A stretch of 24,545 nt of DNA from positions 1 to 24,545 of IMG/VR virus record IMGVR_UViG_3300031722_000163, one strand, 5' to 3'. The notes under the pieces are model-generated. The model saw only the letters and a list, made by a program, of their open reading frames with translations. It searched no databases and had not been told where the DNA came from. A program made the translations under genes and the position numbers. Origin of the DNA: a virus. This document shows positions 1,553 through 24,545 of the stretch, one piece after another. Every line of letters begins with the position of its first letter. Within the stretch, counting starts at the first letter, position 1.

Positions 1553-3577
1553 ATGCAATATTATAATAACACACTCACGGTAGAGGCAGGTTGGTTGATT
1601 GAGAATGAAATAATTTCAAAAACTAATTATGACGCACTAGTTCTGCGAAAGAAAATAACTGTTGTCAGAAGAGGATGTAATAATACTCCGGCATTGGTAC
1701 AGTATGATTCTATGCCCGACAGATTTAAAAGAAAAACTGTCGACAAAATTGGATGTGACCCGCATAGAGTAGTAGCGGAAAATCAAATACAAGTGTATAT
1801 CCGTGAAAATATAAAATCGATAGATTTTTTTGAAACACATAAAATTGCTGATGGTCGATTTTTGCCTAAAGATGTACAACGAGAGTATTACGCTAATGCA
1901 ATAGTGCTTGATGCTATCCATGCAATGATTATAAGTAAAAAGATAAAGCGAAGTGCATTAAGTCATAAAACTACACGATCATGGGATAAGATAGCAGAAG
2001 AGGTTCAAGAACTTGACCGCACAAAGTTTCCTCACTCGCTACCGGCTAACCCCCGCAGACTGGAAGACAAGTATAAAAAGTATTTGAAAGATGGCGTGGA
2101 GATGCTTATTCACAAGAATTATTGCAATAAGAATTCGGCAAAAATTGAAAGCGATGTGAAAGAGGCAATTTTAGCCGAATTACTAGCTGACCCACGAAAC
2201 TTTGATAATGCCCAGGTGATGCGATTCTACAACATTTTTGCAAAAACAACAGGGTCGCAAGAAATAACGAGCAGTACAGTAGCCAACTGGCGTGATAAAT
2301 TTGATACTAACATATTTGCAGGCCGTAGAGGTGCAGTGGCATTCTCAAATAAAAAAGCAATGCAGGTAAAACGTTCGGCACCGAGTTGCCCGCTCTATTA
2401 TTGGACAATGGATGGTTGGGATGTGGAACTACTCTTCCAACGAACAGAAGTAAAAGCGAAAACCGGATATTCAACCACTACATATCATCACAGACCAACC
2501 GTAGTAGTGATTTTGGATGCATTCAATAAATATCCGGTGGGATATGCGATAGGAATACATGAAAGCCCGGACTTGATACGGTTAGCAATGAGAAATGCTG
2601 CACAACATACCAAGGAGCTATTTGGAACGATGTATCGCACTCACCAGGTACAGAGTGATAGGTATCAGATAAAGAACCTGACACCATTTTACGAAACGAT
2701 GGCCGATAAGAGTACACCTGCTAAAGCAAAGAACGCAAAATCAAAAATCATTGAACCTTACTTCAAGCATTTGAACCGCGATTATTGCCAACTAGAACCA
2801 AACTGGGCAGGATGGGGTATTACCTCGAAAAAAGATAGTCAGCCGAACGATGAGTTCCTGCAAAAATACAAAAAGAATTTCCCGAACTACGAAGAGGTTT
2901 GCCAAATGGTAGTTGATATAATCGAAAAAGAGCGCGCACTGAAACTTGAACAGTATATGCAAAAGTGGGGTGAAATGCCCGAAGCTGATAAAATTGAGTT
3001 TAAAGTTGAGAATTACCTGAATGCATTTGGCGAAGTGCTTACACATTCAAGAACCGGAAAGGAAACAACGGCAATGATTCAGCATAATGCTATAACAATA
3101 ACAATAAACGGCATTAAACGCGAATATGATTGCTTTGATCTAGAATTTAGAGATCACTATAGTACTCAATGGCGATTTAAGTACGATCCGAATGATGCGA
3201 CTAAGGTATTGGCCATAAACAGAGATGAAACGCTTCAATTCTTACTCGAAGAGAAATACATTCAGCCAATGGCTTTGAAAGATAGAAAAGTTGGCGATAG
3301 TGGCGAGTTGCAACGAGTGAGAGAGTTTAATTCCAGTTTGGAAAAACAATCGACTGATTTTAGAGCTCAAAACATTGAAAAGATGGCAAGTGTAATGCCT
3401 CTAATGTTGCAGAACGATACGCTTAAAAAACTTATGATTACCGATAGTCATGGACAACATAAGGACCGTAGAAATGACGACCGACGAGTGACAGCAAAAG
3501 CATCTCCACAAAAGGAATTGAAAAGCCGGGCAGTGGATGTTGAGGATGAGGAAATTGATTTTAGAAGTTTATACTAA
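1553..3577 (+). CDS. MuA-like DDE transposase
   Basis: This 674-residue protein has the size and layout of the Mu transposase A family (Mu A is about 660 residues), which catalyses integration and replicative transposition by strand transfer. The N-terminal 50 residues look like a Mu-type DNA-binding domain and residues 100-250 are helical and basic. The catalytic core is clear: D287 in WTMDGWD, D369 in VQSDRYQ and E401 in KIIEPYFKHLNR, with 31 residues between the second D and E, as in DDE recombinases. VVVILDAFNKYPVGYAIG (317-334) is the core beta-hairpin region. Residues after about 470 should form the beta-barrel and the C-terminal region that contacts the ATPase. The AAA ATPase follows 45 bases downstream, matching the Mu A-B order. 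Assignment of E401 rather than a nearby acid is by pattern. Confidence 0.9.
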   Translation: MQYYNNTLTVEAGWLIENEIISKTNYDALVLRKKITVVRRGCNNTPALVQYDSMPDRFKRKTVDKIGCDPHRVVAENQIQVYIRENIKSIDFFETHKIADGRFLPKDVQREYYANAIVLDAIHAMIISKKIKRSALSHKTTRSWDKIAEEVQELDRTKFPHSLPANPRRLEDKYKKYLKDGVEMLIHKNYCNKNSAKIESDVKEAILAELLADPRNFDNAQVMRFYNIFAKTTGSQEITSSTVANWRDKFDTNIFAGRRGAVAFSNKKAMQVKRSAPSCPLYYWTMDGWDVELLFQRTEVKAKTGYSTTTYHHRPTVVVILDAFNKYPVGYAIGIHESPDLIRLAMRNAAQHTKELFGTMYRTHQVQSDRYQIKNLTPFYETMADKSTPAKAKNAKSKIIEPYFKHLNRDYCQLEPNWAGWGITSKKDSQPNDEFLQKYKKNFPNYEEVCQMVVDIIEKERALKLEQYMQKWGEMPEADKIEFKVENYLNAFGEVLTHSRTGKETTAMIQHNAITITINGIKREYDCFDLEFRDHYSTQWRFKYDPNDATKVLAINRDETLQFLLEEKYIQPMALKDRKVGDSGELQRVREFNSSLEKQSTDFRAQNIEKMASVMPLMLQNDTLKKLMITDSHGQHKDRRNDDRRVTAKASPQKELKSRAVDVEDEEIDFRSLY

Positions 3578-3622
3578 TACTAACATGGTAATTGAATTTT
3601 ACCATACAAAAAAAATACGAAA

Positions 3623-4507
3623 ATGAATAGAATTAAAAAAGAAGTAATTGTAAATGCCCTTTGGGAGTATTGCGAACGATATGGTAGTCAGAGTAAAGCA
3701 GCAAAAAGTTTAAAGGATGTAAGTGCTGCAACTATCAGCCAAATGCTTAATGAAAATTGGGGTTTGATACGCGATGAAATGTGGAGGTCGGTTGCTTCGC
3801 AAATAGGGGTTAAACTTAAAGAATGGGAGCAGGTAGATACGGCAGACCACAAGCTTATGACTTCGATTTTGGAGGATGCAAAAGAAAATAGCCTGGTAAT
3901 GGCTATATGCGGTCAGGCAGGAAGCGGTAAAAGTTTTACAATTGACCATTTTCGCAGTAGAAACAAAAATGTATTCGCCCTGAAATGTAATAGCTTTTGG
4001 AATAAGAAAACATTTTTAGCAGAGATACTCAAAGAGATGGGTATTGAATACAGGGGATTGACCGAAAGCGATATGATGTCAGAGGCAATTCACAGTATTA
4101 TTAAACTTGAAAATCCTCTTTTGATTTTTGACGAAGCCGATAAATTAAGCGATGCCTCTCTTTACCTTTTCATTTCGCTGTATAACGCTATTGAAGATGA
4201 ATGCGGAATTATACTCTGCGCTACCAAACACCTCGAAAAAAGCTTGCTACGTGGCGTATCGCTTAATAAAAAAGGGTACAACGAAATTTGGAGTCGTATT
4301 GGTCGCAGATGTATTTCATTGAGAGGTGTAACAGCTGCTGATATAGTGGGAATATGCGAAAGTAATGGAGTTACAGACCAACGATCAATACAGGCAGTAA
4401 TTGCAGACTCGGAAAGTGATCTGAGACGTGTGAAGCGAAAAATATATGCCATTAAAAAGAGTCGGACTGCTCACATTGGTGAAGTACGGGTTTCAAATGA
4501 GGATTAA
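3623..4507 (+). CDS. MuB-like AAA ATPase, transposition target-capture protein
   Basis: This 294-residue protein corresponds to Mu B, the ATP-dependent DNA-binding protein that selects target DNA and stimulates the transposase. Residues 22-44 form an N-terminal helix-turn-helix (SQSKAAKSLKDVSAATISQM). Walker A is GQAGSGKS (97-104) and Walker B is LLIFDEAD (166-173). A sensor-1-like stretch IILCATKHLE lies near 196-205, and arginines in WSRIGRR near 223-229 may supply the arginine finger. The stop codon is immediately followed by the start of the next gene. N-terminal HTH plus AAA core is the standard arrangement in this family. Confidence 0.88.
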   Translation: MNRIKKEVIVNALWEYCERYGSQSKAAKSLKDVSAATISQMLNENWGLIRDEMWRSVASQIGVKLKEWEQVDTADHKLMTSILEDAKENSLVMAICGQAGSGKSFTIDHFRSRNKNVFALKCNSFWNKKTFLAEILKEMGIEYRGLTESDMMSEAIHSIIKLENPLLIFDEADKLSDASLYLFISLYNAIEDECGIILCATKHLEKSLLRGVSLNKKGYNEIWSRIGRRCISLRGVTAADIVGICESNGVTDQRSIQAVIADSESDLRRVKRKIYAIKKSRTAHIGEVRVSNED

Positions 4508-7880: not shown

Positions 7881-8351
7881 ATGAAAGTTTTACAAATAGA
7901 AGAAAGTAACGCACGTAAGCTTTACAAAACAGCAAGTCCAGAATTCAAGCAAGCACTTGAAGATACGTTTGGAAAAGAGTTTTTCTCTGCAAAAATTACT
8001 GATCGTATCAAAACATACGAGGATGCATGTTCGGAACTAGGTGTTCAACCTATTGATGAGGCTAAAATGAAACAAATAGGCTTCACGGATGACGAAATCA
8101 CTTATCGTAAAATTAAAACGATCACTCAAGCACTCAACGAAGGTTGGAAATGTGACTGGAACGATAGTAATCAATACAAATGGTATCCTTGGTTTAAAAT
8201 GTCTTCCGGGGGCTTCGTTTTCTGCGATACGTATTGCGATTACTCGCGTGCGTCTGCGGGTAACGCCTCGCGACTTTGCTTTTCAAGTGACGAAATAGCC
8301 ACTTATGCAGGGAAACAATTCTTACAATTATATTCAGATTTTATAAAATAA
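7881..8351 (+). CDS. DGR variable protein 1
   Basis: This 156-residue protein is the first of two targets of the retroelement. Residues 1-85 are a helical domain (ARKLYKTASPEFKQALEDTF, then KITDRIKTYEDACSELG). Residues about 88-106 (GWKCDWNDSNQYKWYPWFK) lead into the VR-coded part, residues 107-133, followed by 23 residues (SSDEIATYAGKQFLQLYSDF). The W-Y-P-W-F to S-R-L-C-F stretch resembles the C-type-lectin-like fold used by DGR proteins. Residues C115, Y118, C119, Y121, R123, S125 and G110 differ from the TR-encoded ones. No signal peptide or membrane segment is visible. Start ATG 7881 is preferred because an upstream in-frame ATG at 7782 lies inside the DUF4494 gene. Related proteins occur widely in Bacteroidales; the natural ligand is unknown. 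Confidence 0.85.
   Translation: MKVLQIEESNARKLYKTASPEFKQALEDTFGKEFFSAKITDRIKTYEDACSELGVQPIDEAKMKQIGFTDDEITYRKIKTITQALNEGWKCDWNDSNQYKWYPWFKMSSGGFVFCDTYCDYSRASAGNASRLCFSSDEIATYAGKQFLQLYSDFIK
8200..8279 (+). repeat. DGR variable repeat 1 (VR1)
   Basis: Gapless alignment with the TR at 8794-8873 gives 15 differences in 80 positions. Fourteen are at TR adenines (14 of 21 TR adenines changed, to G, T or C) and one is a C to A change near the 3' end. Long adenine-free blocks such as GGGGCTTCGTTTTC are unchanged. It codes residues 107-133 of the first target protein. Confidence 0.93.
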
Positions 8352-8383
8352 TCAGCCGAAAGGCATAAAAACAATTTTCACAC

Positions 8384-8764
8384 ATGGAAAAACAAGAAGT
8401 AACACCAATGGAAAGCATCAAAACAGTAGAAGATGCTCTGAACGTAACCGGAATGTCGGTAACTCCTGAATTCAACGAAGTACCTGAAGAAATGCGGGAC
8501 TATTTTAAAGCTGTATATGCGGCAGTGGTAATAACTAAGGCGATAGTTGGAGACTGGAAAGCTGACTGGAATGATGGTAGTCAACGCAAATGGTATCCTT
8601 GGTTTGAAATGTCTTCCGGGGGCTTCGTTTTCGACGATACGAGTTTCGGTTACTCGGCTGCGAATGCGGGTTACGCCTCGCGCCTTTGCTTTCCTACTGA
8701 GGAGATGGCAGAGTATGCAGGTAGAACATTCACCGACGTTTACAGTCAAATTATTCTGAAGTAA
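8384..8764 (+). CDS. DGR variable protein 2
   Basis: This 126-residue second target has a shorter, unrelated N-terminal part (residues 1-48, acidic) joined to the same variable module: GDWKADWNDGSQRKWYPWFE (about 56-75), the VR-coded residues 76-102, and FPTEEMAEYAGRTFTDVYSQ. VR differences from the TR-encoded peptide include D84, S87, F88, G89, Y90, A92 and Y97. The two targets also share about 50 bases upstream of the VR that the TR lacks, so the genes are related by duplication and not only by retrohoming. No signal peptide is seen. It starts 32 bases after target 1, and the TR follows 29 bases after its stop. Confidence 0.85.
   Translation: MEKQEVTPMESIKTVEDALNVTGMSVTPEFNEVPEEMRDYFKAVYAAVVITKAIVGDWKADWNDGSQRKWYPWFEMSSGGFVFDDTSFGYSAANAGYASRLCFPTEEMAEYAGRTFTDVYSQIILK
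8610..8689 (+). repeat. DGR variable repeat 2 (VR2)
   Basis: Gapless alignment with the TR gives 13 differences in 80 positions, every one at a TR adenine (13 of 21 adenines changed). It codes residues 76-102 of the second target protein. It differs from VR1 at many of the same adenine sites, so the two VRs have been diversified at least partly independently. Confidence 0.95.
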
Positions 8765-8793
8765 AAATAATAGGCTGTTTGTCTTTGTGAGGT

Positions 8794-8873
8794 TGTCTTC
8801 CAGGGGCTTCGTTTTCAACGATACGAATTACGATAACTCGAATGCGAATGCAGGTAACACCTCGCACCTATGC
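8794..8873 (+). repeat. DGR template repeat (TR)
   Basis: An 80-bp copy of the VR sequence lies in the non-coding gap between target 2 and the reverse transcriptase, on the same strand, the usual place for a DGR template. It contains 21 adenines, many in AAY codon positions when read in the VR frame (AAC, AAT, AAC, AAT, AAT, AAC), the arrangement that lets mutation reach many amino acids but no stop codons. In that frame it would read SSRGFVFNDTNYDNSNANAG. Its RNA should template the mutagenic cDNA. The 3' end (CCTCGCACCTATGC) differs from the VR ends, as expected for the IMH* versus IMH distinction. Confidence 0.93.
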
Positions 8874-8977
8874 GAAATAAAGATACAAGGACAAAGGCCT
8901 TGCCACTTGGCAAAAAATTACAAACTTCAAAAGGTACTAGTAGGGAAACTGAAAGTTCCTACACGAAAAGCAAAGCG

Positions 8978-9961
8978 ATGAAAAGACACGGTAATTTATA
9001 CGAACAGGTATGCAGCGAGGATAATATGGTTCTCGCTTGGGAGAAAGCCCGAAAAGGCAAAGCGCACACATACGGTGTGAGACTCTTTGAAAAGGATTTG
9101 GAAAACAATATGAGGCAGTTGCATAATGAACTGACAACGGGAACTTACCGGACTTCGGAATACAGCGTATTTACAATTTATGACCCGAAAGAACGTGAGA
9201 TTTACCGGCTACCATTTCGAGATAGAGTAGTTCACCACGCCATAATGAATGTGATGGAGCCAATATGGACAAGTATTTTCATACAGCAGACGTATAGTTG
9301 CATTAAAGGCCGTGGAATACATGCCGTTTTAATAGCGATTAAACGGGATTTAAAGGACGTTGAAAATACACACTACTGTCTGAAAATGGATGTACGGAAG
9401 TTTTACCCAACCATTGACCACGATATACTGAAAAGCATTATCAGACGGAAGGTAAAAGATAACCGGTTGCTTGATCTGCTTGATCTGATTATTGACAGTG
9501 CGCCAGGTGTTCCAATCGGAAATTATTTATCTCAGTTCTTTGCCAATTTGTATCTTAGTTACTTCGACCACTGGCTGAAAGAAACGAAACAAGTAAAGTA
9601 TTATTACCGATATGCCGACGACATGGTAATACTTGCACCTAATAAAGCGTATTTACATGAATTGCTGACTGAAATAACCGCTTATCTGAACAATGAGCTT
9701 AATCTGCAACTAAAGGGCAATTATCAAGTTTTTCCGGTCGATTTTCGCGGTATTGACTTCGTAGGTTACAAATTCTACCATACGCACATATTAATGCGTA
9801 AATCGATTAAAAAACGGCTTTGCCGAAAGGCTGCAAAGCTAAATAAAAAAGACATTGATGCAAAGAGTTACAGAATTAAAATAGCCCCTTGGTTGGGGTG
9901 GGCAAAGCACTGCGACTCGAAACATTTACTCAAAAAAGTACTGAATGAAGAAATTCTCTGA
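8978..9961 (+). CDS. DGR reverse transcriptase
   Basis: This 327-residue enzyme copies TR RNA into cDNA with errors at adenines. The start at 8978 (MKRHGNLYEQVC) is chosen because it matches the usual DGR-RT N-terminus. An in-frame ATG at 8870 would add 36 lysine/threonine-rich residues and lie inside the TR. RT motifs in order: RLPFRDRVVHHAIM (77-90), KMDVRKFYPTIDHD (136-149, metal-binding D138), GVPIGNYLSQFFANLYL (177-193), YRYADDMVIL (210-219, catalytic YADD) and FVGYKF (261-266). IGNYLSQ replaces the QGxxxSP of group II and retroviral enzymes, a known mark of DGR RTs. There is no maturase, RNase H or integrase domain. The last 17 bases overlap the next gene. Confidence 0.95.
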   Translation: MKRHGNLYEQVCSEDNMVLAWEKARKGKAHTYGVRLFEKDLENNMRQLHNELTTGTYRTSEYSVFTIYDPKEREIYRLPFRDRVVHHAIMNVMEPIWTSIFIQQTYSCIKGRGIHAVLIAIKRDLKDVENTHYCLKMDVRKFYPTIDHDILKSIIRRKVKDNRLLDLLDLIIDSAPGVPIGNYLSQFFANLYLSYFDHWLKETKQVKYYYRYADDMVILAPNKAYLHELLTEITAYLNNELNLQLKGNYQVFPVDFRGIDFVGYKFYHTHILMRKSIKKRLCRKAAKLNKKDIDAKSYRIKIAPWLGWAKHCDSKHLLKKVLNEEIL

Positions 9962-11844: not shown

Positions 11845-12243
11845 ATGGGAGTGATTTTAGCAATAGATTTTGATGGAACAATTGTAGAAGACCGTTTCCC
11901 CGAAATTGGGGATTTTAAACCAGGAGCAAAAGAGAATCTACTGAAACTAAAAAAGGATGGTTATTATTTAATTCTATGGACAAATAGAAATGGTAAAAAA
12001 CTTGCAGAAGCTGCTCAGTTTCTTGGTGAAAATGGAGTTTTATTCGATAGTTATAACAATGGTTGTCCTGCTAATATAGCTGAATATGGAGGTATTGACA
12101 CTCGAAAAGTATTTCACGATATGGTAATAGATGATAGGGGTTTACTTAAACCACTTCCGCACTGGGATGAAATATACGAGATGATTATTGATAGAGTACC
12201 GTTGACTAGGGAGGATAAAGTGATAAGGGAGGGACATCTGTAA
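11845..12243 (+). CDS. HAD-superfamily hydrolase-like protein
   Basis: This 132-residue protein has the HAD core. Motif I is DFDGT, with nucleophile D8 and acid D10, and motif II is the threonine in LILWTNR (T46). A lysine follows near 51-52 and motif IV is MVIDDRG with D96 and D97. Without a cap domain it resembles the short phage HAD proteins related to polynucleotide phosphatase or 5'-nucleotidase types. It may dephosphorylate a nucleotide or a DNA end, but the substrate cannot be read from sequence. With the MazG-like gene it suggests nucleotide-metabolism functions in this cluster. Confidence 0.75.
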   Translation: MGVILAIDFDGTIVEDRFPEIGDFKPGAKENLLKLKKDGYYLILWTNRNGKKLAEAAQFLGENGVLFDSYNNGCPANIAEYGGIDTRKVFHDMVIDDRGLLKPLPHWDEIYEMIIDRVPLTREDKVIREGHL

Positions 12244-14281: not shown

Positions 14282-17200
14282 TTAATTAGCTCCATATAGC
14301 GTGAAATCGAATGACCCCGTATCAACAGCCGTTCCGCTCATATTCCTAACCGTAACCTGAAAGGTATTTGTTCCTCTACTTGTTACGCGGGCATTCAGAT
14401 TATCGGTAGTAGATGTTATCTGAACGCTGTAGGTACTTCCGGCTTGATGTGGGACATTATATATTCCAGTTCCACCCTTTGTTACCCATACGTTAGATGC
14501 CCTCTTTTTTGCGCCCCATTCATTGGATAGTCCACCGGAGCTATTGACGCTACCAGTTGCAAGGACTCCTGGTAAATCAGTTGCACCACGTCTTGAAAAT
14601 TCATCATCTCCTAAATGCAGCCACTCATCGGCTGACTTTATGAAATTAAACCCATTCAGTCCTATTTCAGAAATGGTATTTACAATAGTGCCGGTAAGCG
14701 TTTGCCCTGCCGAAATGGAAGCACTGGCTAAGCCGGTTCCTGCGCCTTCGTGTGAAATGCTAATCGTAACATCTATACGGTAAATACTACCTTTCATCCC
14801 GGTAAGTGTTTTTGCTCCGATAGTTCCACTATCCTCAGATACGGATGAATTACTAGACGAAACGCTTTCGTTACTTTCCCATACAGATACTCCTTTTGAT
14901 ACATCAAATAAACTAACACGAACGCTTGCATCACCTGTATAGTGAATTTTATTAATACCGTCATAGTCTCCACTTGCTGAAAGTGAAAAGTTGACTGCAG
15001 GAGTTACTATGGTGAAGAATTTAGTCGGGTCAAGCGTTATAGTTTCGGTACTTCCAATAGTAGCAGTTCCGTCTTCATCTATCGTATTAGCGTGCGCTGC
15101 ATAGGTAGTTGTGGTAACTGTTGTAGAACCTCCAATCTCACCACGTGGAGACACTGTTTTAGGAGATATTTTTACTTTTTCTAACCCGGCATAATCATAA
15201 ATTGTTATAGAGTTATTTGAGTTACTTATTTCTAGCCTATCACCCGATACAGCAGTTCTAATAAGTGCGCTAATCAGCATTATTTGTGAAGCTACATCAA
15301 AGTCAATCAATCCACCACCTATTCGGAAATTACCATTTTTATTGAATATATTTTTCGCTATACCCGCTATAGCATCTGCATACGTTCCACCCGTCCAAAT
15401 ACCAACATTATCATTTTGTACGCCCGACATTCCACCCTTAACAACATTATCAGTATCTCGAACCTGAATCAGGGTTGTACTGAACAAACCGCCATTAGCT
15501 TCAGAACTAGATTGAAGAGCTGATTTTAGATAGTCGGCTTCCATTGCTTTCGCTTTCGCTTCATCTATTTTTATAGTTGTATATTCAGGAGAAGCCATCC
15601 ATGCTAACATCGGTTTCCCACCCTCTACTACTGACACTTCTTTTGTCCAAATAGGGATACTAAAGTCAGACTGATATAAAATCAAAATTCCTGTAGCTTC
15701 ATTCCACCAATTCGGACAAATTCCACGTATTGAAAACTGCTGATAAGTATTTGTAAGAGTAATACCTGCAGAAGCAAATGAGCCGGTTACTGAGTCTAAG
15801 AAATATAAATTAGGACTAACAGTTCTATCCGACTTAGCCATTACTGTACCACAATATTCCTTACCTCTTTTCATTAACGCTCCATAAGTCACATATCCAT
15901 AAACGAGAATTTCAGAGCCATCTCCTGACACTAAATTTTTTGTGCTTATATTTAGGTTATCAATAGTACTTTGTGCTGTATTGGCGACTGCTGTGGCTGC
16001 ATTCGCCTTAGCTGTAGCATCTGCTGCTGCTGCGTTAATCGCTGCTGTCTGAGCGTTATTCGCCTTAGTAGTTGCATCATTTATTGCTCGTTGTTCCTCG
16101 GCTGTAACGATACCGTCAGCATGAGCCTTTGCATTTAATTCGGCTAAATCTGCTTTTGCCTGTGCTGCTGCTGCTGCCGTACTGATTGCTGCCGTTTGGG
16201 CTGCGTTCGCCTTAGCTGTAGCGTCTGCTGCTGCTGCGTTAATCGCTGCTGTCTGGGCGTTGTTCGACTTAGTAGTTGCATCGTTGATTGCTCGCTGTTC
16301 TTCGGCTGTTACGATACCGTCAGCATGAGCCTTTGCGTTTAATTCTGCTAAGTCTGCTTTCGCCTGTGCTGCCAATGCTGCTGTACTGATGGCTGCCGTT
16401 TGAGCTGCGTTCGCCTTAGCTGTAGCGTCTGCTGCTGCTGCGTTAATCGCTGCTGTCTGAGCATTGTTCGCCTTAGTAGTAGCATCGTTGATTGCTCGCT
16501 GTTCTTCGGCTGTTACGATACCGTCAGCATGAGCCTTTGCGTTTAATTCTGCTAAGTCTGCTTTTGCCTGTGCTGCCAATGCTGCTGTACTGATGGCTGC
16601 TGTCTGTGCTGCATTTGCCTTTGAAGTAGCATCAGCAGCCACATCTTCGGGTGCCTCCTCCCATGCAAGCATCGGTTTATCTCCTTCAACAACTGATACT
16701 TCTTTTGTCCAAATTGGGATACTTCCATTTGATTGATAAATAATCAAAATACCTGTTCCCTCATTCCACCAATTAGGACATACCCCACGTATCGAGAATT
16801 GCTGATAAGTAGTAGTAAGAGTAATTCCTGCACTAGCAAAAGACCCTGTGACAGAGTCTAAGAAATATATATTAGCAGCTATGTTTCTGTCGGATTTAGC
16901 CATTACTGTACCGCAGTAGGACTTCCCTCTTCTCAAAATAACAGAACTCCATGAATGACCATTTCCACAAACTTCACTGCCTGAGTTTAAGACTAAATTT
17001 CTAGTACTAATTACTAAATTATTTACAGCAGTATCATCAGTGTATTTGACAGCTTTAACCCAATCGCCCGAAACAAAACTACCTGATGAACGTGCAGTTA
17101 TACAACTATACAAATCACCATTATTAAGCCATAAATCGGCTGCTAAATAAGGTGTAGTAGGTTGTGAATCGAATACAGTTCTCTTGCCATTTGCAATAGC

Positions 17201-19645
17201 TGTAGCCGTTCCTGCTGCTGTTAGTGCTTGTTGTGTTGCAGTGTCGGCAATAACTCCCCATTCCCATGCAGATGTTGAGCCGTTATACTGAAATCTCCAA
17301 CATTTACCGTTGGAAGTATTTGTGTAAGTATCATTTGCATGTTGATTGCGTAGCGTTTCGATTGTCCACTCAGATGCGGGTGAATTTGTCAGCAACGCAT
17401 CTACCTGTCTGAACCACGATATGATCTGACCGTCAATTTGTGATTGCTTATCTGCTCCTACCACATCAGCATAGTTTTTTGCTTCTAAATAGGCTGCATT
17501 TGCCTTATTGGTTGCATCTGCTGAAGCGGTACTTATTGCAGTGTCTTTTGCGGTATTAGCCTTAGTTGTAGCATCGTTTGAAGCGAGCTGAACGGCTTCA
17601 GATTTGGCATCAGCAATGCCGGCACCAACTTCTTTGTAGGTTTCGCCTGATTTGAATTGTACATATCCCTTTATTGAACCATTAGTCATATTAATTTCAA
17701 GTCCACCGCCCGAAATAACACCCGTCTTAATGTTTGCACCGTTTATAGTTGTTTCGCCGTAGGATAGCGAAATGCCGCGCACTCCATTTATTGGCGTGTG
17801 TAATAGTCCTATCAGGAGCATCCAATTAGTTCCGTCGGCATCGAACTTGGTAGCAGTTGTCGAAAAATAGATATCTCCGGTAGTACCGGTGCGGCTACAT
17901 CGAGCATAAATGTACATCGCGCTACTGGCGTACTGAGTGGCAATGGTTAGACTACCTTCCGAAATTACCCATTCTTTTATCTGATCATCCACTAGCGTAA
18001 AGTGTGCTAATGTTCCCGCGCTCCAGGTTATAACTTGCGGATTGTTCAGGTAGTTGGGTTGTAGGGTACACGCAAGCTGAAACGATTGGCTTTTTGTGCC
18101 AACGCTCAACATACCTGTTTCGATAGAAGCCGGCTTTATTTTTTGAGTATCAAAATAGCCGTCAGGGTCGAACACCATATCTTTTACCTCCCTTGTGTTT
18201 TGGTAGGCCTGTAGTCGGTTTTTATTTACTTGGTCGTTCGTTACTACTACCTGATTGGTTACATTCGCCACATCGCCCGCTATGCGTTGAAGTGTGGTTT
18301 TAGTAACCGTATTGGATAGGTCGAATTGAACGTTATAGAAGTCGGTAAGTCCTTTCGTAATTTTTACGATCCGTAAACGCTCATTGATGCCAATGTTAGT
18401 GTCTACTACCGGAACGGTGTCGCCACACTCTATGTTTTGAACATGTTGTTTAGCATATACGGCACTAAATGTGGCTTTATAGTTTACTTTCGGTGTAGCA
18501 TTTGAATTCAGGTATTCAAGGCCTTTGTCCTTTACTTCCAATTCGCCTGAAGTAACGTAATTGGCAGGCATCACAAGGTCAATTAATATATACTTATCGC
18601 CAACAGCTGGCTTAAGGTCGGTAGTTGGTAAGGTAAAGTCTTTTTCGCCTGTATTGGCTATGATTACATACGTTTTAGTAGTATTGTTGTACGATGCTAT
18701 TTCGAAATCATATCCGGCACATTCGCCTGTATTGAAGCGGACTTTTGCTTTTGTTCCATCCAATAAACAATCATTGACATTAAAATCTAAATGACTATCG
18801 GTAAACGCAAATTCATTACCCACGGATGTGACAGTTCCTGCGGCACCTGATGATAAGCGCGGGTAAATATCCTCAAATGTTTTTGACTGTTCGATGATAC
18901 CATACAACGCAGCATTAGCATGTTGCAGATAGGTATCGGGAGCGGGTAAAAGTAATTTTGTACTTCCACCCCGATAATTAGCAGCTATGTTCTTAGAACT
19001 ACCAAATACATACAACCGTGTAACAATATCGGAACTGTTCACGGATGAACGTTCAATATCGTACAAAGTAGAGCCGTATTGAAGTGTTATTTCACGGTCG
19101 GTACTTATTTTCTTTAAATGTATCGTGTGGTTGATAACATGGTATTCGGTTGCGAATTCATCTGCCAACCGACCGAGTACAGTTAAGCAGTCCTCATCTG
19201 AAAAAGTAAGGTTTTTATATTCGGTACCAGGAATAACATCACCTAGCGACCAAGTGGCTGCGCCCGCTACACGGTTGAGGTTATCAATGAGCAATTGCAT
19301 GAACGTTTCGGCCGTTCCTGTAAGCGGGAACTCATCAAGCGGAACAGTATCCGTATTGTCGAAAAGCATGTACATAGCTTTTGAAAGCTCGTATTTTGTT
19401 GACTGAAATACGGCATTGTATTGATAGACCCGAGTACTCAACTTTTTGACAGTTGGTATTTGGTTCATCGTAAAGTTTGAACCTTCGTAAACGATGTAAT
19501 CACCTATGTTTAATTGCAAAAACGTTGGCTGCTCCCACACCAACGTTATTTGTTCTTCGCCCATTACGGCTTTGCTATAGTTCGATGAAGATAGCGGATT
19601 GTCGACTGCCAACAGGTTGGCATTATTTCGTTTAATTTGGATCAT
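14282..19645 (-). CDS. Large phage tail protein (tail tip/baseplate and host-contact)
   Basis: A 1787-residue structural protein and the last gene of the leftward cluster. Residues 1-450 resemble the N-terminal hub region of phage tail-tip proteins (MIQIKRNNANLLAVDNPLSS, TVLGRLADEFATEYHVINHT). Residues about 450-860 look like a beta-rich tail module with the short peptide TFEDIYPRLS. A module of about 125 residues occurs twice, at about 878-1002 and 1231-1357, each with NLV, YCGTVMAKSDR, YFLDSVTGSFASAGIT and PNWWNE. Between them lie three alanine-rich 68-residue repeats with AHADGIVTAEEQRAIND (about 1008-1215), probably a helical stalk. The C-terminal 230 residues are serine/threonine/glycine-rich beta sheet and probably bind the host. 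Its start overlaps the Dit-like gene by 14 bases. Confidence 0.75.
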   Translation of the reverse strand: MIQIKRNNANLLAVDNPLSSSNYSKAVMGEEQITLVWEQPTFLQLNIGDYIVYEGSNFTMNQIPTVKKLSTRVYQYNAVFQSTKYELSKAMYMLFDNTDTVPLDEFPLTGTAETFMQLLIDNLNRVAGAATWSLGDVIPGTEYKNLTFSDEDCLTVLGRLADEFATEYHVINHTIHLKKISTDREITLQYGSTLYDIERSSVNSSDIVTRLYVFGSSKNIAANYRGGSTKLLLPAPDTYLQHANAALYGIIEQSKTFEDIYPRLSSGAAGTVTSVGNEFAFTDSHLDFNVNDCLLDGTKAKVRFNTGECAGYDFEIASYNNTTKTYVIIANTGEKDFTLPTTDLKPAVGDKYILIDLVMPANYVTSGELEVKDKGLEYLNSNATPKVNYKATFSAVYAKQHVQNIECGDTVPVVDTNIGINERLRIVKITKGLTDFYNVQFDLSNTVTKTTLQRIAGDVANVTNQVVVTNDQVNKNRLQAYQNTREVKDMVFDPDGYFDTQKIKPASIETGMLSVGTKSQSFQLACTLQPNYLNNPQVITWSAGTLAHFTLVDDQIKEWVISEGSLTIATQYASSAMYIYARCSRTGTTGDIYFSTTATKFDADGTNWMLLIGLLHTPINGVRGISLSYGETTINGANIKTGVISGGGLEINMTNGSIKGYVQFKSGETYKEVGAGIADAKSEAVQLASNDATTKANTAKDTAISTASADATNKANAAYLEAKNYADVVGADKQSQIDGQIISWFRQVDALLTNSPASEWTIETLRNQHANDTYTNTSNGKCWRFQYNGSTSAWEWGVIADTATQQALTAAGTATAIANGKRTVFDSQPTTPYLAADLWLNNGDLYSCITARSSGSFVSGDWVKAVKYTDDTAVNNLVISTRNLVLNSGSEVCGNGHSWSSVILRRGKSYCGTVMAKSDRNIAANIYFLDSVTGSFASAGITLTTTYQQFSIRGVCPNWWNEGTGILIIYQSNGSIPIWTKEVSVVEGDKPMLAWEEAPEDVAADATSKANAAQTAAISTAALAAQAKADLAELNAKAHADGIVTAEEQRAINDATTKANNAQTAAINAAAADATAKANAAQTAAISTAALAAQAKADLAELNAKAHADGIVTAEEQRAINDATTKSNNAQTAAINAAAADATAKANAAQTAAISTAAAAAQAKADLAELNAKAHADGIVTAEEQRAINDATTKANNAQTAAINAAAADATAKANAATAVANTAQSTIDNLNISTKNLVSGDGSEILVYGYVTYGALMKRGKEYCGTVMAKSDRTVSPNLYFLDSVTGSFASAGITLTNTYQQFSIRGICPNWWNEATGILILYQSDFSIPIWTKEVSVVEGGKPMLAWMASPEYTTIKIDEAKAKAMEADYLKSALQSSSEANGGLFSTTLIQVRDTDNVVKGGMSGVQNDNVGIWTGGTYADAIAGIAKNIFNKNGNFRIGGGLIDFDVASQIMLISALIRTAVSGDRLEISNSNNSITIYDYAGLEKVKISPKTVSPRGEIGGSTTVTTTTYAAHANTIDEDGTATIGSTETITLDPTKFFTIVTPAVNFSLSASGDYDGINKIHYTGDASVRVSLFDVSKGVSVWESNESVSSSNSSVSEDSGTIGAKTLTGMKGSIYRIDVTISISHEGAGTGLASASISAGQTLTGTIVNTISEIGLNGFNFIKSADEWLHLGDDEFSRRGATDLPGVLATGSVNSSGGLSNEWGAKKRASNVWVTKGGTGIYNVPHQAGSTYSVQITSTTDNLNARVTSRGTNTFQVTVRNMSGTAVDTGSFDFTLYGAN
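15573..15950 (-). repeat. Duplicated tail module, copy nearer the C-terminus
   Basis: Codes about 125 residues closely matching those from 16640-17012: YCGTVMAKSDR, YFLDSVTGSFASAGITLT, QQFSIRG and IPIWTKEVSVVEG are shared. It may be a carbohydrate-binding-like beta sandwich, inferred from W/Y content and similar modules in tail fibres. The first 25 residues differ more than the rest. Confidence 0.7.
16020..16632 (-). repeat. Three tandem 204-bp repeats in the tail gene
   Basis: The sequence TTAATCGCTGCTGTCT recurs at 16035, 16239 and 16443, an exact 204-bp (68-codon) period, with high identity across each unit. Differences are mostly at third codon positions (for example GCATGAGCCTTTGCATTTAA versus GCATGAGCCTTTGCGTTTAA). 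The units code alanine-rich helices with a constant DGIVTAEEQRAIND. Copy number can change by recombination, altering stalk length. Confidence 0.9.
16640..17012 (-). repeat. Duplicated tail module, copy nearer the N-terminus
   Basis: Partner of 15573-15950, coding NLVLNSGSEVCGNG to the PMLAWEEAPED end. It lies just N-terminal to the three alanine-rich repeats, so the repeats are flanked by the two copies. Confidence 0.7.
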
Positions 19646-20075
19646 ACGTGCGATTTGTTGGATTCTGTTCGAGAACTGAAATTTCGTAACTAACTATCAC
19701 TTTGCCATATCTGAGCGAACGTGTTTTGTCGATACACTTAGCACCCTCGTAAAGTAAGTGTGTAGTAACCCCAATGTCTTTTACCCATAATGAGAAACTA
19801 CCCGGTGTGGCAATGGCTGCAATAAATGCGTTATACTGCGTCCAAAATGCTGTATAGTCAACTGCTGCAATAATTACTTTGATGTTGAACCTACGCGGCT
19901 CATAGGTTAGCGGACTGGTAGTGTCGACATCTACACCATTCTGATCAGTATATTCATGCTCCAAGCGTTTGCGTGGAGTTGGTGGTGACATGATTTCGTT
20001 ATATGAACCTCGCTTAATACCTACGCCATAAGTACTATAGGTATCAATACCGTTTATTTTCCAAAGAGTTGTCAT
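19632..20075 (-). CDS. Distal tail (Dit-like) protein
   Basis: This 147-residue protein begins MTTLWKINGIDTYSTYGVGI, a typical short beta start of tail-hub proteins, and contains FNIKVIIAAVDYTAFWTQYN and GKVIVSYEISVLEQNP. Position directly before the large tail-tip gene, with overlapping ends on both sides (ATGA with the portal gene, 14 bases with the tail gene), fits a Dit-like adaptor that joins tail tube and tip. The family call rests on position and general look. Confidence 0.5.
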   Translation of the reverse strand: MTTLWKINGIDTYSTYGVGIKRGSYNEIMSPPTPRKRLEHEYTDQNGVDVDTTSPLTYEPRRFNIKVIIAAVDYTAFWTQYNAFIAAIATPGSFSLWVKDIGVTTHLLYEGAKCIDKTRSLRYGKVIVSYEISVLEQNPTNRTYDPN

Positions 20076-22219
20076 TTTGCGTTTTCGTTAAGAAGTTCAT
20101 TGACTAATTTCATTATCATCTCAGCTGATTGAGCATCTGTATTTTTTACATACGGATGTTCTTTCATGTTTACTATTTCGGCCGTATCAGCCGGATTGAA
20201 TGCAAATACAGGATCAATCGTTTCGCCGCCTTCAGGAACATCGGTAACCGGTTTGTCGGTATTTTTAATAGAGCACTCACAACCCCAATCAACTGGTGGT
20301 GTATGATCTTTCCACCAAGGGTGATCCATAGGTAAAATAGTACCGTACCATTCTTTATGTGCTTCGCGCGGTTCGGCCGCCGTACTTGGCATAAATTCAA
20401 GATTTGGGTACAATCGTTTAGTGGCTTCGAATTGCTTTAATTTTGCAGCCATTCGGCTTGAACGTACCGCCATATTGTACTCTGTTTTCAACCAATTCTG
20501 ATTATAATCGGCTTTAATGGTTGTGCCAAGTACCGCCTTTCTGAATTTATCGAACGAAAGTAAATTTCCATCAGCGTCGATTAATTGAGCAACAATATCG
20601 CTTGTTTGTCGGTGGTTCTTAAATGCTGAGAACACAGCTGCATTTTGTTTGAACTCTGCTATAAAAGATTCGTTCTTTTTGCCAAATTCTACGCCCGCAC
20701 TTTTGAACTCTTTGTCAATAGCTTTTTGATAAGATTTATTTGATATGTCGAACAGCGGTTTAGATACAAGTGGCATCTCTTCCGGGTTAAGTTCGTATTG
20801 CGCATAAATGTCATTTAAAGCCTGATTAAACAGTTTATCAATGTTGATGCCCGCCGTATAATTCGTTGACTTGTCTGCTAAACTCAGACCTCGACTCCGC
20901 TCGGTCACCTGATTTGTTGCCCGGCTCCACATTGTCCGGGCGTCCACGAAAAAACCGCTAACCATTTCTTTAAACCATGATTTGTCAGAATCGGATAACT
21001 TGACATCTTTAGACTTTGGCGGCTTTAGTTCGGGTGGAACAGGAGCGTTGGGGTCAATAGGTGCATTTGGATCAGCAGGTGCCGGTTGTGCCTTTTTAGC
21101 AATAATGTCACCCGCTGCCGGTTGTGGTAATCCATATTTATCGTGGAAGTAATAAGCCGGTATTTCAATAATATCGCTAAGGCTTATCAGTTCATCAACG
21201 GTTAAGTCTTTAAGTGCTTTCGGGAAATTGAAAGCTCCATCCTTTACTTTGTAGCCGCGCGCTTCGAGTATAGGTTTAAATTTCTTATTCAGAATACGTT
21301 GAACAAATCGCAAATCAGCCTTATTCAATTCCTCTTCCACATCTTTATGTACCTTACTTTGACTCATGCTCGAACCATCCATAGTAGTCATTGTCTGACT
21401 CAGAATGGTGATAAGCATTAGTTCCTGAAGTGTAGTAATAAAGTCCTTATATAAACCTCCGCCTCCGCTTCCACTAATTGTAGTAGTTTCGATATCGGTT
21501 TCTTTAGGCACTATCAATGTAGCAGCTGCTCCCTGACTATCAAAAGCATCTTGCAGTTGTTTGCGTGCTTCAGTATCGTAAATAGAGTATTTACCAACGC
21601 GCTGAGGCATACCAAAGAGTTCAACCATTTGCGCCCAGTCGCCCAAGCCACCGCGCTGCAAAATAACATAAGGAGCTGCACGGTGTAGTAAACCGTATTT
21701 TGTAGAACGGTTCTTTATTTCAATGACATTTGGAGCATCAGCATACGAAATACCGTTGTCGTAATCCGATTCATTAATGGCAATAAGCTTTTTGTCTGCA
21801 CGAATATGTTTACGAGGTGCTGAGTAGACATCAAAGCCGTTAGAAAAGTCGAATTCAAGAACGGTAATGAACTCAAATACTGACTTCATTACTTCCTCCA
21901 ACATGTACTCAAATTCGTCAGTATCTATCAGATTAATCATCTCATCCGATTCTGTACCGTCAGCAAACTGAAATGTAAGGTCTGCTCCCTTTACCGCACG
22001 AATACGTTTTTCAATGGCATCGGCAAGAATTCCATCTGTCATCAATAACTCATACAAGTCGAACAATTCTTTATACTTACCATTATCAGCAGATTTAAGC
22101 GCGTTCGTCCATTTATCCATTGATAACAGACTACGATTAACCGGCTTTACGATGACCTGATTAATGATTAATGGTTGGTTCGTACTGCCTTTTTTGACAG
22201 TGGCTTTTACTGGTGCCAT
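20072..22219 (-). CDS. Portal (DUF935, Mu gp29-like) fused to MuF-like head protein
   Basis: A 715-residue protein. Residues about 20-375 match the Mu gp29 (DUF935) portal type: SMDKWTNALKSADNG, LYELLMTDGILADAIEKRIR, GGLGDWAQMVELFGMPQRVG and TLQELMLITILSQTMTTMDG. A proline-rich linker follows (DPNAPIDPNAPVPPELKPPK, about 386-406). Residues about 440-715 are a MuF/SPP1 gp7-like minor head protein, with the typical end segment REAHKEWYGTILPMDHPWW and PPVDWGCECSI. In Mu these are two genes (29 and 30), so this is a fusion or a family-wide merged form. The portal is the DNA entry channel; MuF proteins enter the capsid. VTERSRG near residue 440 is coded by the same GC-rich repeat as at 11511. Confidence 0.85.
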   Translation of the reverse strand: MAPVKATVKKGSTNQPLIINQVIVKPVNRSLLSMDKWTNALKSADNGKYKELFDLYELLMTDGILADAIEKRIRAVKGADLTFQFADGTESDEMINLIDTDEFEYMLEEVMKSVFEFITVLEFDFSNGFDVYSAPRKHIRADKKLIAINESDYDNGISYADAPNVIEIKNRSTKYGLLHRAAPYVILQRGGLGDWAQMVELFGMPQRVGKYSIYDTEARKQLQDAFDSQGAAATLIVPKETDIETTTISGSGGGGLYKDFITTLQELMLITILSQTMTTMDGSSMSQSKVHKDVEEELNKADLRFVQRILNKKFKPILEARGYKVKDGAFNFPKALKDLTVDELISLSDIIEIPAYYFHDKYGLPQPAAGDIIAKKAQPAPADPNAPIDPNAPVPPELKPPKSKDVKLSDSDKSWFKEMVSGFFVDARTMWSRATNQVTERSRGLSLADKSTNYTAGINIDKLFNQALNDIYAQYELNPEEMPLVSKPLFDISNKSYQKAIDKEFKSAGVEFGKKNESFIAEFKQNAAVFSAFKNHRQTSDIVAQLIDADGNLLSFDKFRKAVLGTTIKADYNQNWLKTEYNMAVRSSRMAAKLKQFEATKRLYPNLEFMPSTAAEPREAHKEWYGTILPMDHPWWKDHTPPVDWGCECSIKNTDKPVTDVPEGGETIDPVFAFNPADTAEIVNMKEHPYVKNTDAQSAEMIMKLVNELLNENAK
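20887..20908. repeat. GC-rich repeat copy inside the portal-MuF gene
   Basis: CCTCGACTCCGCTCGG (20889-20904) matches CTTCGACTTCGCTCAG (11530-11545) in 13 of 16 positions, with GACC/GGTC arms. It adds VTERSRG in frame in the region between the portal and MuF domains, a place that tolerates inserts. Confidence 0.5.
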
Positions 22220-22222
22220 ATT

Positions 22223-22630
22223 TTAAAAATGATTTGAGCGTTTCGGATTGGAATTGTAAATAATTGTACCTGTTTGCTGTTCTACAGGGAGTGCCGGAAG
22301 GTCGGGCATTACTTCACCTTTTTGAACTTGTCTGAGCCATGAAACTGCACGTTCGTATCTGTCTTGTCGAAGTTCCAACGATGTGTTTACGTTGCATATA
22401 TTTACAAAATGCCACACCGCAATATCTTTCAGAAAAATGATAAGTAAGGCATTACGCGCTTCACCTTCCTTTGCCAGTTCGGATGTAATGTCGAAAGCAT
22501 GCAGATATCCTTTTGCCTCAACAGTTGCTCCATCAATGGCAGCTTGTAGCATGGTATCATCTCCATTGCTAATAGCTTCTATTTGCTCTGCACCCAAATG
22601 GGTGGTTATTTCTTGTGGTGTGATATACAT
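22223..22630 (-). CDS. DUF1320 (Mu gp36-like) protein
   Basis: This 135-residue protein starts MYITPQEITTHLGAEQIEAI and continues with AAIDGATVEAKGYLHAFDIT, AVWHFVNICN and DRYERAVSWLRQVQKGEVMP. This is the characteristic DUF1320 pattern of Mu gp36, a small head-tail connector-type protein. It stops 3 bases before the portal gene start, so the two are coupled. In Mu, gp36 lies after the capsid gene. Here it precedes the portal, a different order. Confidence 0.8.
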   Translation of the reverse strand: MYITPQEITTHLGAEQIEAISNGDDTMLQAAIDGATVEAKGYLHAFDITSELAKEGEARNALLIIFLKDIAVWHFVNICNVNTSLELRQDRYERAVSWLRQVQKGEVMPDLPALPVEQQTGTIIYNSNPKRSNHF

Positions 22631-22645
22631 GACAGTTGATAGTTG

Positions 22646-23017
22646 TTAGTTGACAGTTGATAATTTCTTAGCCGGTTGAAATATGATATTTATTCCAGGC
22701 ACTTCTACATTTTTATAAACAGGGTGCGAGTTCACGTGTCCTTGTGTATCGTAAAGCTGAATTCCTTTCATCTTTTCAAGATTCATAGTGCTTTTAATAG
22801 CTCCTTGATTCTTTAGCCACTGCACTTGCTTCCGGTTTACAACTCGGTACTTCCCACCAAGAAAATAGATATACGTTCGCTTGCCTTTTTGGCGTTGAGT
22901 GCCTATTGCTAACTTTTCAGCTTGCTTTATTGCTTTTACGAAATGTAGGCGATTAGCACGCCACTTGGTACGAATAATAAGGAGTTGAGTCAGTGCTTTA
23001 ATTATAATATTTTTCAT
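22646..23017 (-). CDS. Small basic phage protein
   Basis: A 123-residue, lysine/arginine-rich protein. Start MKNIIIKALTQL (23017) is preferred over an in-frame ATG at 23047, which would begin inside a hairpin at 23038-23060. It contains RTYIYFLGGKYRVVNRKQVQ and PGINIIFQPAKKL, and seems to be a small beta-rich domain. No family is recognised; the gene is in the head/connector cluster. Its end runs through a short direct repeat (ACAGTTGATA, at 22632 and 22653). Confidence 0.55.
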   Translation of the reverse strand: MKNIIIKALTQLLIIRTKWRANRLHFVKAIKQAEKLAIGTQRQKGKRTYIYFLGGKYRVVNRKQVQWLKNQGAIKSTMNLEKMKGIQLYDTQGHVNSHPVYKNVEVPGINIIFQPAKKLSTVN

Positions 23018-23037
23018 CGTGTGTGTTTGTTTTAAAT

Positions 23038-23060
23038 GGGCGACCAAGTACGATCGCCCG
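23038..23060. repeat. Hairpin between structural genes
   Basis: GGGCGA (23038-23043) pairs with TCGCCC (23054-23059), loop of 10 bases. On the minus strand it lies after the acidic protein gene and just ahead of the basic protein start, so it may be a weak attenuator or processing site. No T run follows. Confidence 0.35.
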
Positions 23061-23075
23061 AATTTAGAAGATTGA

Positions 23076-23522
23076 TTAGCGACCTTTCATTACGTCAGCA
23101 TAAAGCTCTGCATGCTCAGCGCAGCAAAATGCTTTATCATTGACATAGAATTCAGTTGTTTCACATACACCACCACAGTAAATGCATTCGTCCTTTTCGA
23201 TGTCGCCACCTTCGGAATTTTCATCGCCTTTAGCATCTTTTCCTAATTCGGATGTATTATCACCTTCTGTAATTTCATCTGCTCCGGGTAGCGTATCGCT
23301 TTTTGTCGATTCGTCTGTTTTAGGCACCTCAATAGTGCCTGTTTGAATAAACCCTCCAGTTACATCAGTACTTTCAGATAAAGTAGTTTCGGGTTCTTTT
23401 TTCGTTTCAGAACTTTCCGTAACTTCCTCTTGAGTTGTTTGTACTTGTTCAACTGTTTTAGGGGTAACTGTTTCTGTGATTTCGGTAGTTGTTTCAGGAA
23501 CTTCCGCTGTTGTTTTAGCCAT
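23076..23522 (-). CDS. Acidic low-complexity protein with C-terminal zinc-binding domain
   Basis: A 148-residue protein. Residues 1-105 are low-complexity T/E/S-rich (TEITETVTPKTVEQVQTTQ), likely disordered. Residues about 109-148 carry ECIYCGGVCETTEFYVNDKA and FCCAEHAELYADVMKGR, with cysteines and a histidine (CxxCxxxC, CC, H) spaced as in a small treble-clef zinc domain. It follows the terminase gene. It might be a small terminase-linked DNA-binding protein or a linker; no family is recognised. Confidence 0.6.
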   Translation of the reverse strand: MAKTTAEVPETTTEITETVTPKTVEQVQTTQEEVTESSETKKEPETTLSESTDVTGGFIQTGTIEVPKTDESTKSDTLPGADEITEGDNTSELGKDAKGDENSEGGDIEKDECIYCGGVCETTEFYVNDKAFCCAEHAELYADVMKGR

Positions 23523-23548
23523 CTTTTTTTGAATTAAATTATTAATAA

Positions 23549-24545
23549 TTAAAATCGTTTGCTGTTTTTATGCTTTACTCCTGTTACTATACTTTCGCTT
23601 GTAATTGATAAAGCTTTGTTATTGCAAATAAATACGCCACCCTCTATGGAATCGGGTCCGTCGGCGGGTGCTTTCATTGTTGCCGAGAAAAGTTTAAATT
23701 GTTCCTCTAGTCGCTGCATGTGTGGATTGTTCTTTTCTTTAATATTGAAAATCAATCTACCAGTACGAATAAGTGGTTCAAGGTTTCCCTCTATACGGCT
23801 GAACTTATCGGGCTTTTTTCGTGCGTCCGGGATAACTCCAATGTGATGCGCTCGTTCCTGACCTTTTCGGAAAAATAGCGGCATAAATACCTGTTCAAAA
23901 AATGGGTCTTGCAGCGTATTATTTTCAATATAGTTATATATCTGCGTGCGCTGTTTGGTATAATCCTCCATAGCGTAGAACCAGTCTACAAATTCATCAT
24001 TCGTTACGCGATCAAGAAAACCGTATATCACATAAAAGTTACCATCTACGCTTCCAATTAGCCATAAGGCTTTAGTCGAGTTCTTGCGGTCGCCAACGTT
24101 GTTGCTTGGGCTTGGGTCGGCATAGGCTATCAGGAACTTGAATTTATTGATTGGCGGAACATCGCCCCATGTAAGCTCTTTGAAAATATCACCTTCCGAT
24201 ATCGGATTGTTGAAGCACTCAGCTTGTTGTGCTTTGGTGCTCATTTTTGATAGTACACGGTCGATTTGTTCCTCCGAGTTCTTAGCCGGCCATGAACTTT
24301 TACCATCTTTGTTACGGATGTTTACAATATCATGATGGTCGGCACGTTTGGCGCAGCGGGTAACACAGCAGTCGCGGGAAATAATATTTCCAAGTACCAG
24401 GAATAAAAGAGGTTTTGAAACCGAACGTGTCATGTATAGCGCACGTTCTAACCAGTCGAACCGTTTATCAATGGTATCTTTATTTCGACAATCCTCATCC
24501 GTATCTAAGTCGGTACAGATAATGGAGTCGGGGCGTAAGTTTTCA
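23549..24545 (-). CDS. Terminase large subunit, partial (N-terminus beyond the window)
   Basis: The frame is open to the right edge, so the gene continues past position 24545; the ATG at 24433 is internal. At least 331 residues are present. The edge-coded part reads RPDSIICTDLDTDEDCRNKD, fitting a Walker B-like region of the packaging ATPase. A later segment FLIAYADPSPSNN fits the first acidic motif of the RNase H-like nuclease, followed by LWLIGSVDGNFYVIYGFLDR. C-terminal residues (LEPLIRTGRLIFNI, LEEQFKLF) match the terminase tail. It cuts and pumps DNA into the head. It resembles Mu gp28-type terminases by context. It is the first gene seen of the leftward cluster. Confidence 0.85.
   Translation of the reverse strand, partial: ENLRPDSIICTDLDTDEDCRNKDTIDKRFDWLERALYMTRSVSKPLLFLVLGNIISRDCCVTRCAKRADHHDIVNIRNKDGKSSWPAKNSEEQIDRVLSKMSTKAQQAECFNNPISEGDIFKELTWGDVPPINKFKFLIAYADPSPSNNVGDRKNSTKALWLIGSVDGNFYVIYGFLDRVTNDEFVDWFYAMEDYTKQRTQIYNYIENNTLQDPFFEQVFMPLFFRKGQERAHHIGVIPDARKKPDKFSRIEGNLEPLIRTGRLIFNIKEKNNPHMQRLEEQFKLFSATMKAPADGPDSIEGGVFICNNKALSITSESIVTGVKHKNSKRF

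Follow-up and report, generated by a model that had tools for sequence, protein, structure and literature searches.

Does this stretch of phage DNA hold a diversity-generating retroelement (DGR) that still works, and which proteins would it alter? DGRs are known mainly for altering phage tail fibres. The window (the whole stretch analysed) is a linear 24.5-kb virus record, a fragment of 24,545 nt without host flanks; its features are collected in Table 1. Its plus strand carries the MuA, MuB, DUF3164 and DUF4494 genes and its minus strand the tail, portal and terminase genes; the Pfam scan of the window ORFs gave a Portal_Mu match (PF06074, E 1.8e-57). Judging by the MuA/MuB transposition genes and the Mu portal, the window appears to come from a Mu-like phage. 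The initial annotation spoke of a "Mu-like prophage". The first half of this name agrees with phrog_310, phrog_296 and PF06074; since the window is a virus fragment, the second half is demonstrated only for a relative (L083), which lies within a 248-kb Paludibacter contig and shows an unchanged order of MuB, portal and TerL.

Table 1. Features of the window (positions in the 24,545-nt stretch)
Feature	Position	Strand	Details
Mu-type transposase A (MuA)	1553-3577	+	phrog_310, 1.6e-34; with MuB (1553..4507) the start of the early block
Mu-type transposase B (MuB)	3623-4507	+	phrog_296, 6.5e-53; MuB C-terminal domain
Target 1 (T1), 156 aa	7881..8351	+	ORF from MKVLQIEE; phrog_11581, 2e-34; VR1 near the C-terminus
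Variable repeat 1 (VR1)	8200-8279	+	15 differences to TR, 14 at TR adenines
Target 2 (T2), 126 aa	8384..8764	+	ORF; phrog_11581, 2.5e-17; carries VR2
Variable repeat 2 (VR2)	8610-8689	+	13 differences to TR, 13/13 at adenines
Template repeat (TR), non-coding	8794-8873	+	80 nt; 2/4226 differences in near-identical loci
RT-17 RNA (Rfam RF03020), TR-RT spacer	8896..8974	+	44.5 bits (gathering 40.4), E 1e-5
DGR reverse transcriptase (RT), 327 aa	8978..9961	+	PF00078, 4e-16; phrog_1423, 1e-135; YADD, IGNYLSQ
RT-linked accessory gene (A3 family), 105 aa	9945..10262	+	overlaps the RT stop; phrog_19665; no Pfam
Structural block (tail, portal, terminase)	14282..24544	-	Prophage_tail, Portal_Mu, weak terminase match

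The annotation listed one 80-bp TR and two gapless 80-bp VRs with 14 of 15 and 13 of 13 differences at adenines; all these coordinates and counts were reproduced, and a blind repeat search of the window recovered the same family. With 21 adenines in 80 positions, the adenine bias has a hypergeometric probability of 1.0e-9 for VR1 and 6.5e-10 for VR2; the one mismatch of VR1 elsewhere is C74 of TR, which reads A. Not all adenine mismatches are equally informative. At TR positions 9, 42, 59, 66, 73 and 77 both VRs have the same base, and among 50 distinct TR/VR pairs the VR base is near-invariant at TR 59 (G, 48/48), 66 (G, 46/50), 73 (G, 47/47) and 77 (T, 47/47). Because these four positions hardly vary in VRs, the adenine mismatches that look truly diversified number about 8 in VR1 and about 7 in VR2; the remaining adenine mismatches look like fixed marks that distinguish TR from VR.

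The RT has the YADD and IGNYLSQ motifs that had been reported for it, both of the DGR type (Y.DD and (I/L/V)GxxxSQ). Its likely start is position 8978 (MKRHGNLYE), as the first ATG (8870) falls inside TR. In the tree the window RT falls together with DGR RTs of the BPP type, and two non-DGR phage RTs stand apart; the branches are long, and the placement of BPP-1 and hankyphage is unsure. A retron or defence RT was also considered: the PADLOC and NCBIfam matches to DRT, retron and group II models are partial and far under the NCBIfam cut-offs, and the TR/VR pairs decide in favour of a DGR. The spacer between TR and RT scores above the gathering threshold as a member of Rfam RT-17, which was also detected in the spacers of L007 and L025; in a comparison of 45 loci, each of the 4 predicted pairs of its UUGCC/GGCAA hairpin shows two-sided changes that preserve pairing. 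A structured TR-RT spacer RNA is a feature of DGRs, and RT-17 is that of the window-type lineage where it was detected (the window, L007 and L025).

Whether the element works was judged from its relatives. Related RTs are encoded at 80 viral and 64 genomic loci, and TR and VRs were located by a script that scores ungapped repeats with adenine mismatches free; in the relatives scanned, the placement of the sets is constant: about -780, -368 and -184, counted from the RT start. Over 8,061 nt the window and the locus L002 differ only six times, each time at a TR-adenine site of VR2; by place alone, the chance of this is about 1e-12. In 60 near-identical pairs (not all mutually independent), VR positions opposite a TR adenine differ at 98/1972 sites, other VR positions at 3/5331, TR at 2/4226 and the remainder at 78/225279 (Fisher 2e-52). 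TR is thus conserved, and variation at non-adenine positions of VRs is far rarer than at adenines, so that neither of the two refutations envisaged in the initial annotation applies. Either repeat can change alone: L034 has 11 differences from L035 in VR1 and none in VR2; from L036 it has 9 in VR2 and none in VR1.

Could the VR differences nevertheless be an old divergence of paralogues, or gene conversion among T1, T2 and TR, with the DGR dead? The six adenine mismatches identical in both VRs would agree with this, as would the natural recombination between VR1 and TR in L004-L006, which removed T2 and TR. Against it, otherwise identical loci differ by adenine-only changes in single VRs, the bases gained in such rewriting are often present in neither TR nor the other VR, and the RT motifs are intact. 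We find this explanation barely credible; the adenine-limited changes in the L002 comparison and in the 60 pairs contradict a dead cassette. Comparison of the sequences thus points to a DGR that is active in nature, with VRs being rewritten and TR kept invariant. The earlier description of the DGR as complete, carried by a Mu-like phage and serving two targets within the early-gene block (phrog_310, phrog_296, PF06074), is upheld.

The three assemblies L004, L005 and L006 deserve a separate remark: upstream of RT, VR1 is recombined with TR, and T2 and TR are gone. We therefore do not regard them as DGRs without repeats. The cassette may have inactivated itself naturally in this way; a collapsed assembly is the alternative.

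As the best explanation of the whole, with mechanism and roles, we propose, with a probability of about 0.85, that a Mu-like phage of Bacteroidota carries an active DGR here. In this explanation TR would be transcribed together with its 3' spacer (the RT-17 RNA); RT, probably with the 105-aa A3 protein replacing Avd, would make cDNA from TR, miscopying most of its adenines; and the cDNA would replace VR1 or VR2, each independently. Each of two small paralogues of ancient origin would thereby acquire a diversified loop close to its C-terminus. By every core test the element is a DGR; it departs from the textbook system in its small early targets with no C-lectin fold detected, in A3 instead of Avd, and in a non-random outcome at CAG. 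The account of the initial annotation is partly right, and it missed the RT-linked 105-aa gene, the RT-17 RNA and the non-random adenines.

The last of these departures is a rule. TR adenines in CAG read G in VR in 343/348 cases over all groups (277/282 in small targets, 46/46 in Bacteroidales tail targets, 4/4 in other tail targets, 15/15 in crAss, 1/1 in Bacillota and similar); the TR/VR pairs share ancestry, so these are not independent events. In other contexts, CAC gives mostly G (82%), CAA is random, and the CTAT adenine (TR 77) is fixed as T, i.e., CTAT becomes CTTT. TR positions 9, 59, 66, 73 and 77 (8802, 8852, 8859, 8866 and 8870 in the window) are such CAG/CAC and CTAT adenines fixed as G (T). 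Four-fold synonymous positions, in which GCA, TCA or CCA precedes a G, have G in 127/128 cases, and CGA|A sites are mixed (G10 A7 T8 C5); hence selection on the protein does not explain the rule. Slippage on the template, where an adenine would take the base of its 3' neighbour, fits CAG and TAT but not CAC, and we reject it. Candidate causes are base choice by RT, RNA modification, repair at integration and an integration mark. The BPP-1 RT is described as context-dependent, and a near-deterministic CAG outcome does not appear in the passages on this RT (PMC12875486).

It is tempting to attribute the invariant changes (CAG to CGG, CTAT to CTTT) not to copying but to IMH/IMH* differences outside the transferred segment. 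A putative asymmetry of this type is present at the 3' end (TR CGCACCTATGC versus VR CGCGCCTTTGC, with CGCGACTTTGC in VR1); 47/47 pairs have it, without variation, at TR 73 and 77, and both positions belong to the 3'-terminal part of the homology, in which BPP-1 leads one to expect such differences. However, CAG adenines inside the outermost variable sites behave in the same way (119/120 in small targets, 16/16 in Bacteroidales tail targets, 2/2 in other tail targets, 11/11 in crAss, 1/1 in Bacillota and similar). The cleanest case is TR 59, which is unchanged between the window and L002 while TR 55 and 64 on its two sides changed. We consider this explanation a serious one, with a chance somewhat below even. 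As for the region beyond the repeats, a BPP-1-type stem-loop directly 3' of either VR was not found; only A/T-rich pairs occur near the stop codons, at least 60 nt downstream. The stem-loop after VR, as in BPP-1, is helpful for a DGR but not essential.

The initial annotation considered two targets served by one short TR to be less common. Within this lineage the opposite was found: at the 87 loci with enough flank, two TR-matched VRs are present in 69 and three in nine, and 81/87 relatives have at least two ORFs of the target family. Two tandem targets are the conserved norm of a Bacteroidota-wide DGR lineage, whose hosts include Paludibacter, Dysgonomonas, Prevotellaceae, Chitinophagaceae, Flavobacteriaceae, Weeksellaceae (Apibacter), Dyadobacter and Emticicia. 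For DGRs in general, 271 with multiple VRs were reported in a study of 948 non-redundant elements (PMC6642488). For the most part T1 and T2 group separately (19/30 T1 belong to a group that holds no T2), which makes the pair an old one. The repeat search of nine relatives of 33-48 kb gave no additional VR, hence no tail target there, and the same search of the window and these nine gave no DGR target in the structural block. Dyadobacter sp. Leaf189 (L121) has VRs matching its own TR at -4106 and +8770 from RT, and L129 has one at -3859; since VRs about 4 and 9 kb away match TR, the system of some members reaches remote targets. In L074 and L091 (Dysgonomonas PH5-45), a unit of about 600 nt (T2 with flank) is tandemly duplicated to give three targets.

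What the targets do is a more difficult matter. Neither Pfam nor NCBIfam gave a significant match for T1 or T2, and phrog_11581 is the one family that they match; up to 2.9e9 stop-free protein variants are possible for each. The two AlphaFold models (pLDDT 85 and 84) are helical, with VR at low confidence, and match only uncharacterised phage proteins; neither a fold search nor a sequence search of PDB gave a match. A C-lectin fold was not detected by Pfam, the PDB sequence search or the two models (in which VR itself is of low confidence); a C-lectin target is thus unsupported, though it may still apply.

Tail proteins make up the majority of viral DGR targets (PMC8144416). T1 and T2 could likewise be adhesion proteins of the virion, namely small proteins of the tail tip or of the head decoration, with an accidental place in the early region. 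Their VR peptide is similar to the one in tail targets: a 447-aa frame in the L077 record is matched by the target profile, in the VR stretch only. The homologue in Bacteroides phage Versailles is annotated "tail protein". This homologue is, however, found among recombination and replication genes. In the window and its relatives T1 and T2 belong to the MuA/MuB block, on the strand opposite to tail, portal and terminase; they have just 126-156 aa, with no Pfam domain or fibre features, and their models are helical with no fold match in PDB. In LoVEphage, the neighbours of the T1 homologue are methyltransferases and a Lar-like restriction alleviation protein; the structural target there is a separate tail protein. 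Adhesion proteins of the virion are therefore, in our opinion, unlikely, although they deserve to be kept in mind. We presume instead that T1 and T2 are early, intracellular, non-virion proteins that bind varying factors of the host or of rival phages and do not serve adsorption.

The position of A3 invites a similar question. Avd, HRDC or MutS-like accessory proteins are common in DGRs but not universal. Among the window ORFs tested by Pfam no Avd (PF22296, bAvd) was found, with a positive Bordetella (BIP-1) control, and no HRDC or MutS-like accessory. A3 has no Pfam family and no PDB match; we accordingly do not take it for Avd, HRDC, MutS-like or OB/SSB, and by our reading of the alignment it may have a beta-beta-beta-alpha-beta-beta pattern. 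A family profile search placed it beside RT in 92/95 small-target loci (64/66 distinct RT sequences). The known DGR accessories are Avd, HRDC and MSL (PMC10053308), and no publication naming the A3 domain was found in the open-access literature.

A3 might be an ordinary early phage gene that merely adjoins RT; it has no known domain, and it was detectable neither in 20 tail-target Bacteroidales loci nor in crAss DGRs. With several related lineages in which it is not detected, A3 is not universal. Yet in five sources it is fused to the C-terminus of RT (hankyphage, L171, residues 328-435, domain E 1e-27; L085; L131; L176; L177), and in L072, L080, L092, L146 and L175 it stands 5' of RT, in L175 between VR and TR, i.e., in the place of avd in BPP-1. 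Twelve whole genomes contain it 13 times, about one per cassette and never away from a DGR-type RT (the coordinates compared coincide with DGR loci), and 7/7 matches among 395 Bacteroidia genomes adjoin such an RT. A bystander gene is therefore improbable. A3 appears to belong to a DGR-specific, RT-linked family and would serve as an RT cofactor in place of Avd. Further downstream in the window, a small HAD-type hydrolase gene (11845-12243, PF13344, 2e-4) is kept in many relatives.

Combining these points, we tentatively propose, at odds that are against us, a Bacteroidota-wide lineage in which an unrecognised RT-specific A3 (a gene or a C-terminal domain of RT) replaces Avd, the targets are tandem, early, non-lectin and non-virion (probably used inside the cell against the host or against rival phages), and RT almost always gives G at CAG. 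The cassette type is known; the non-tail targets, the RT-tied helper gene and the fixed exception to the adenine rule appear undescribed. If this is true, a widespread lineage that hypermutates only two small early proteins would make phage DGRs a tool for conflict within the cell. A3, which is fused to RT in the well-studied hankyphage, is a concrete candidate for the factor that lets DGRs of Bacteroidota do without Avd, and the CAG rule bears on base choice by DGR RTs or on keeping TR distinct from its targets. Isolates carrying relatives exist in Dysgonomonas, Apibacter, Dyadobacter and Emticicia.

It was noted at the outset that a DGR in a Bacteroides Mu-like phage had already been described. 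This is hankyphage (Bacteroides phage p00; PMC6199706, PMC12135933), which shares with the window the Mu-like phage, the VR-TR-RT order and an active DGR. The window DGR is nevertheless a distinct one: the RTs are 33.8% identical, A3 is an extra C-terminal domain of the hankyphage RT and a separate gene in the window, and hankyphage has a single 117-bp VR with a reported tail fibre target instead of two small early-region targets. The hankyphage ORF directly 3' of RT (L171, 4802-5287) matches DUF4376 and not bAvd. We assume that it is the ORF annotated as Avd in PMC12135933; if so, that name is doubtful.

Quimbyvirus and LoVEphage (PMC8008677, PMC8525569) resemble the window in that one TR serves two targets. 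The LoVEphage (L147) TR has its matches (8044-8155 and 24337-24423) in a tail protein and, as the distal target, in a T1 homologue; the latter is about 30% identical to T1 and lies on the strand opposite to the structural genes, and an A3 domain is near RT. The window, in contrast, has small targets only, in tandem. From the split RT and the layout we infer that LoVEphage is Quimbyvirus-like. For Quimbyvirus, a second, non-structural target with a C-lectin domain and a possible role in conflict was described (PMC8008677); its authors found C-lectin domains in both targets, whereas none was detected in T1 and T2.

The tentaclin DGRs of gut phages (PMC10743442) also have two target genes each. 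Both targets, found in small myoviruses, are of the C-lectin type, one of them with Ig domains (569-579 aa); the RT is distant from that of the window (34.7% for nd12). The Bordetella phage BPP-1 has Avd (PF22296 in the BIP-1 control), the Mtd tail fibre with a C-lectin fold, and the stem-loop after VR, none of which was found in the window; the two share the VR-TR-RT mechanism, adenine mutagenesis and a structured TR-RT spacer.
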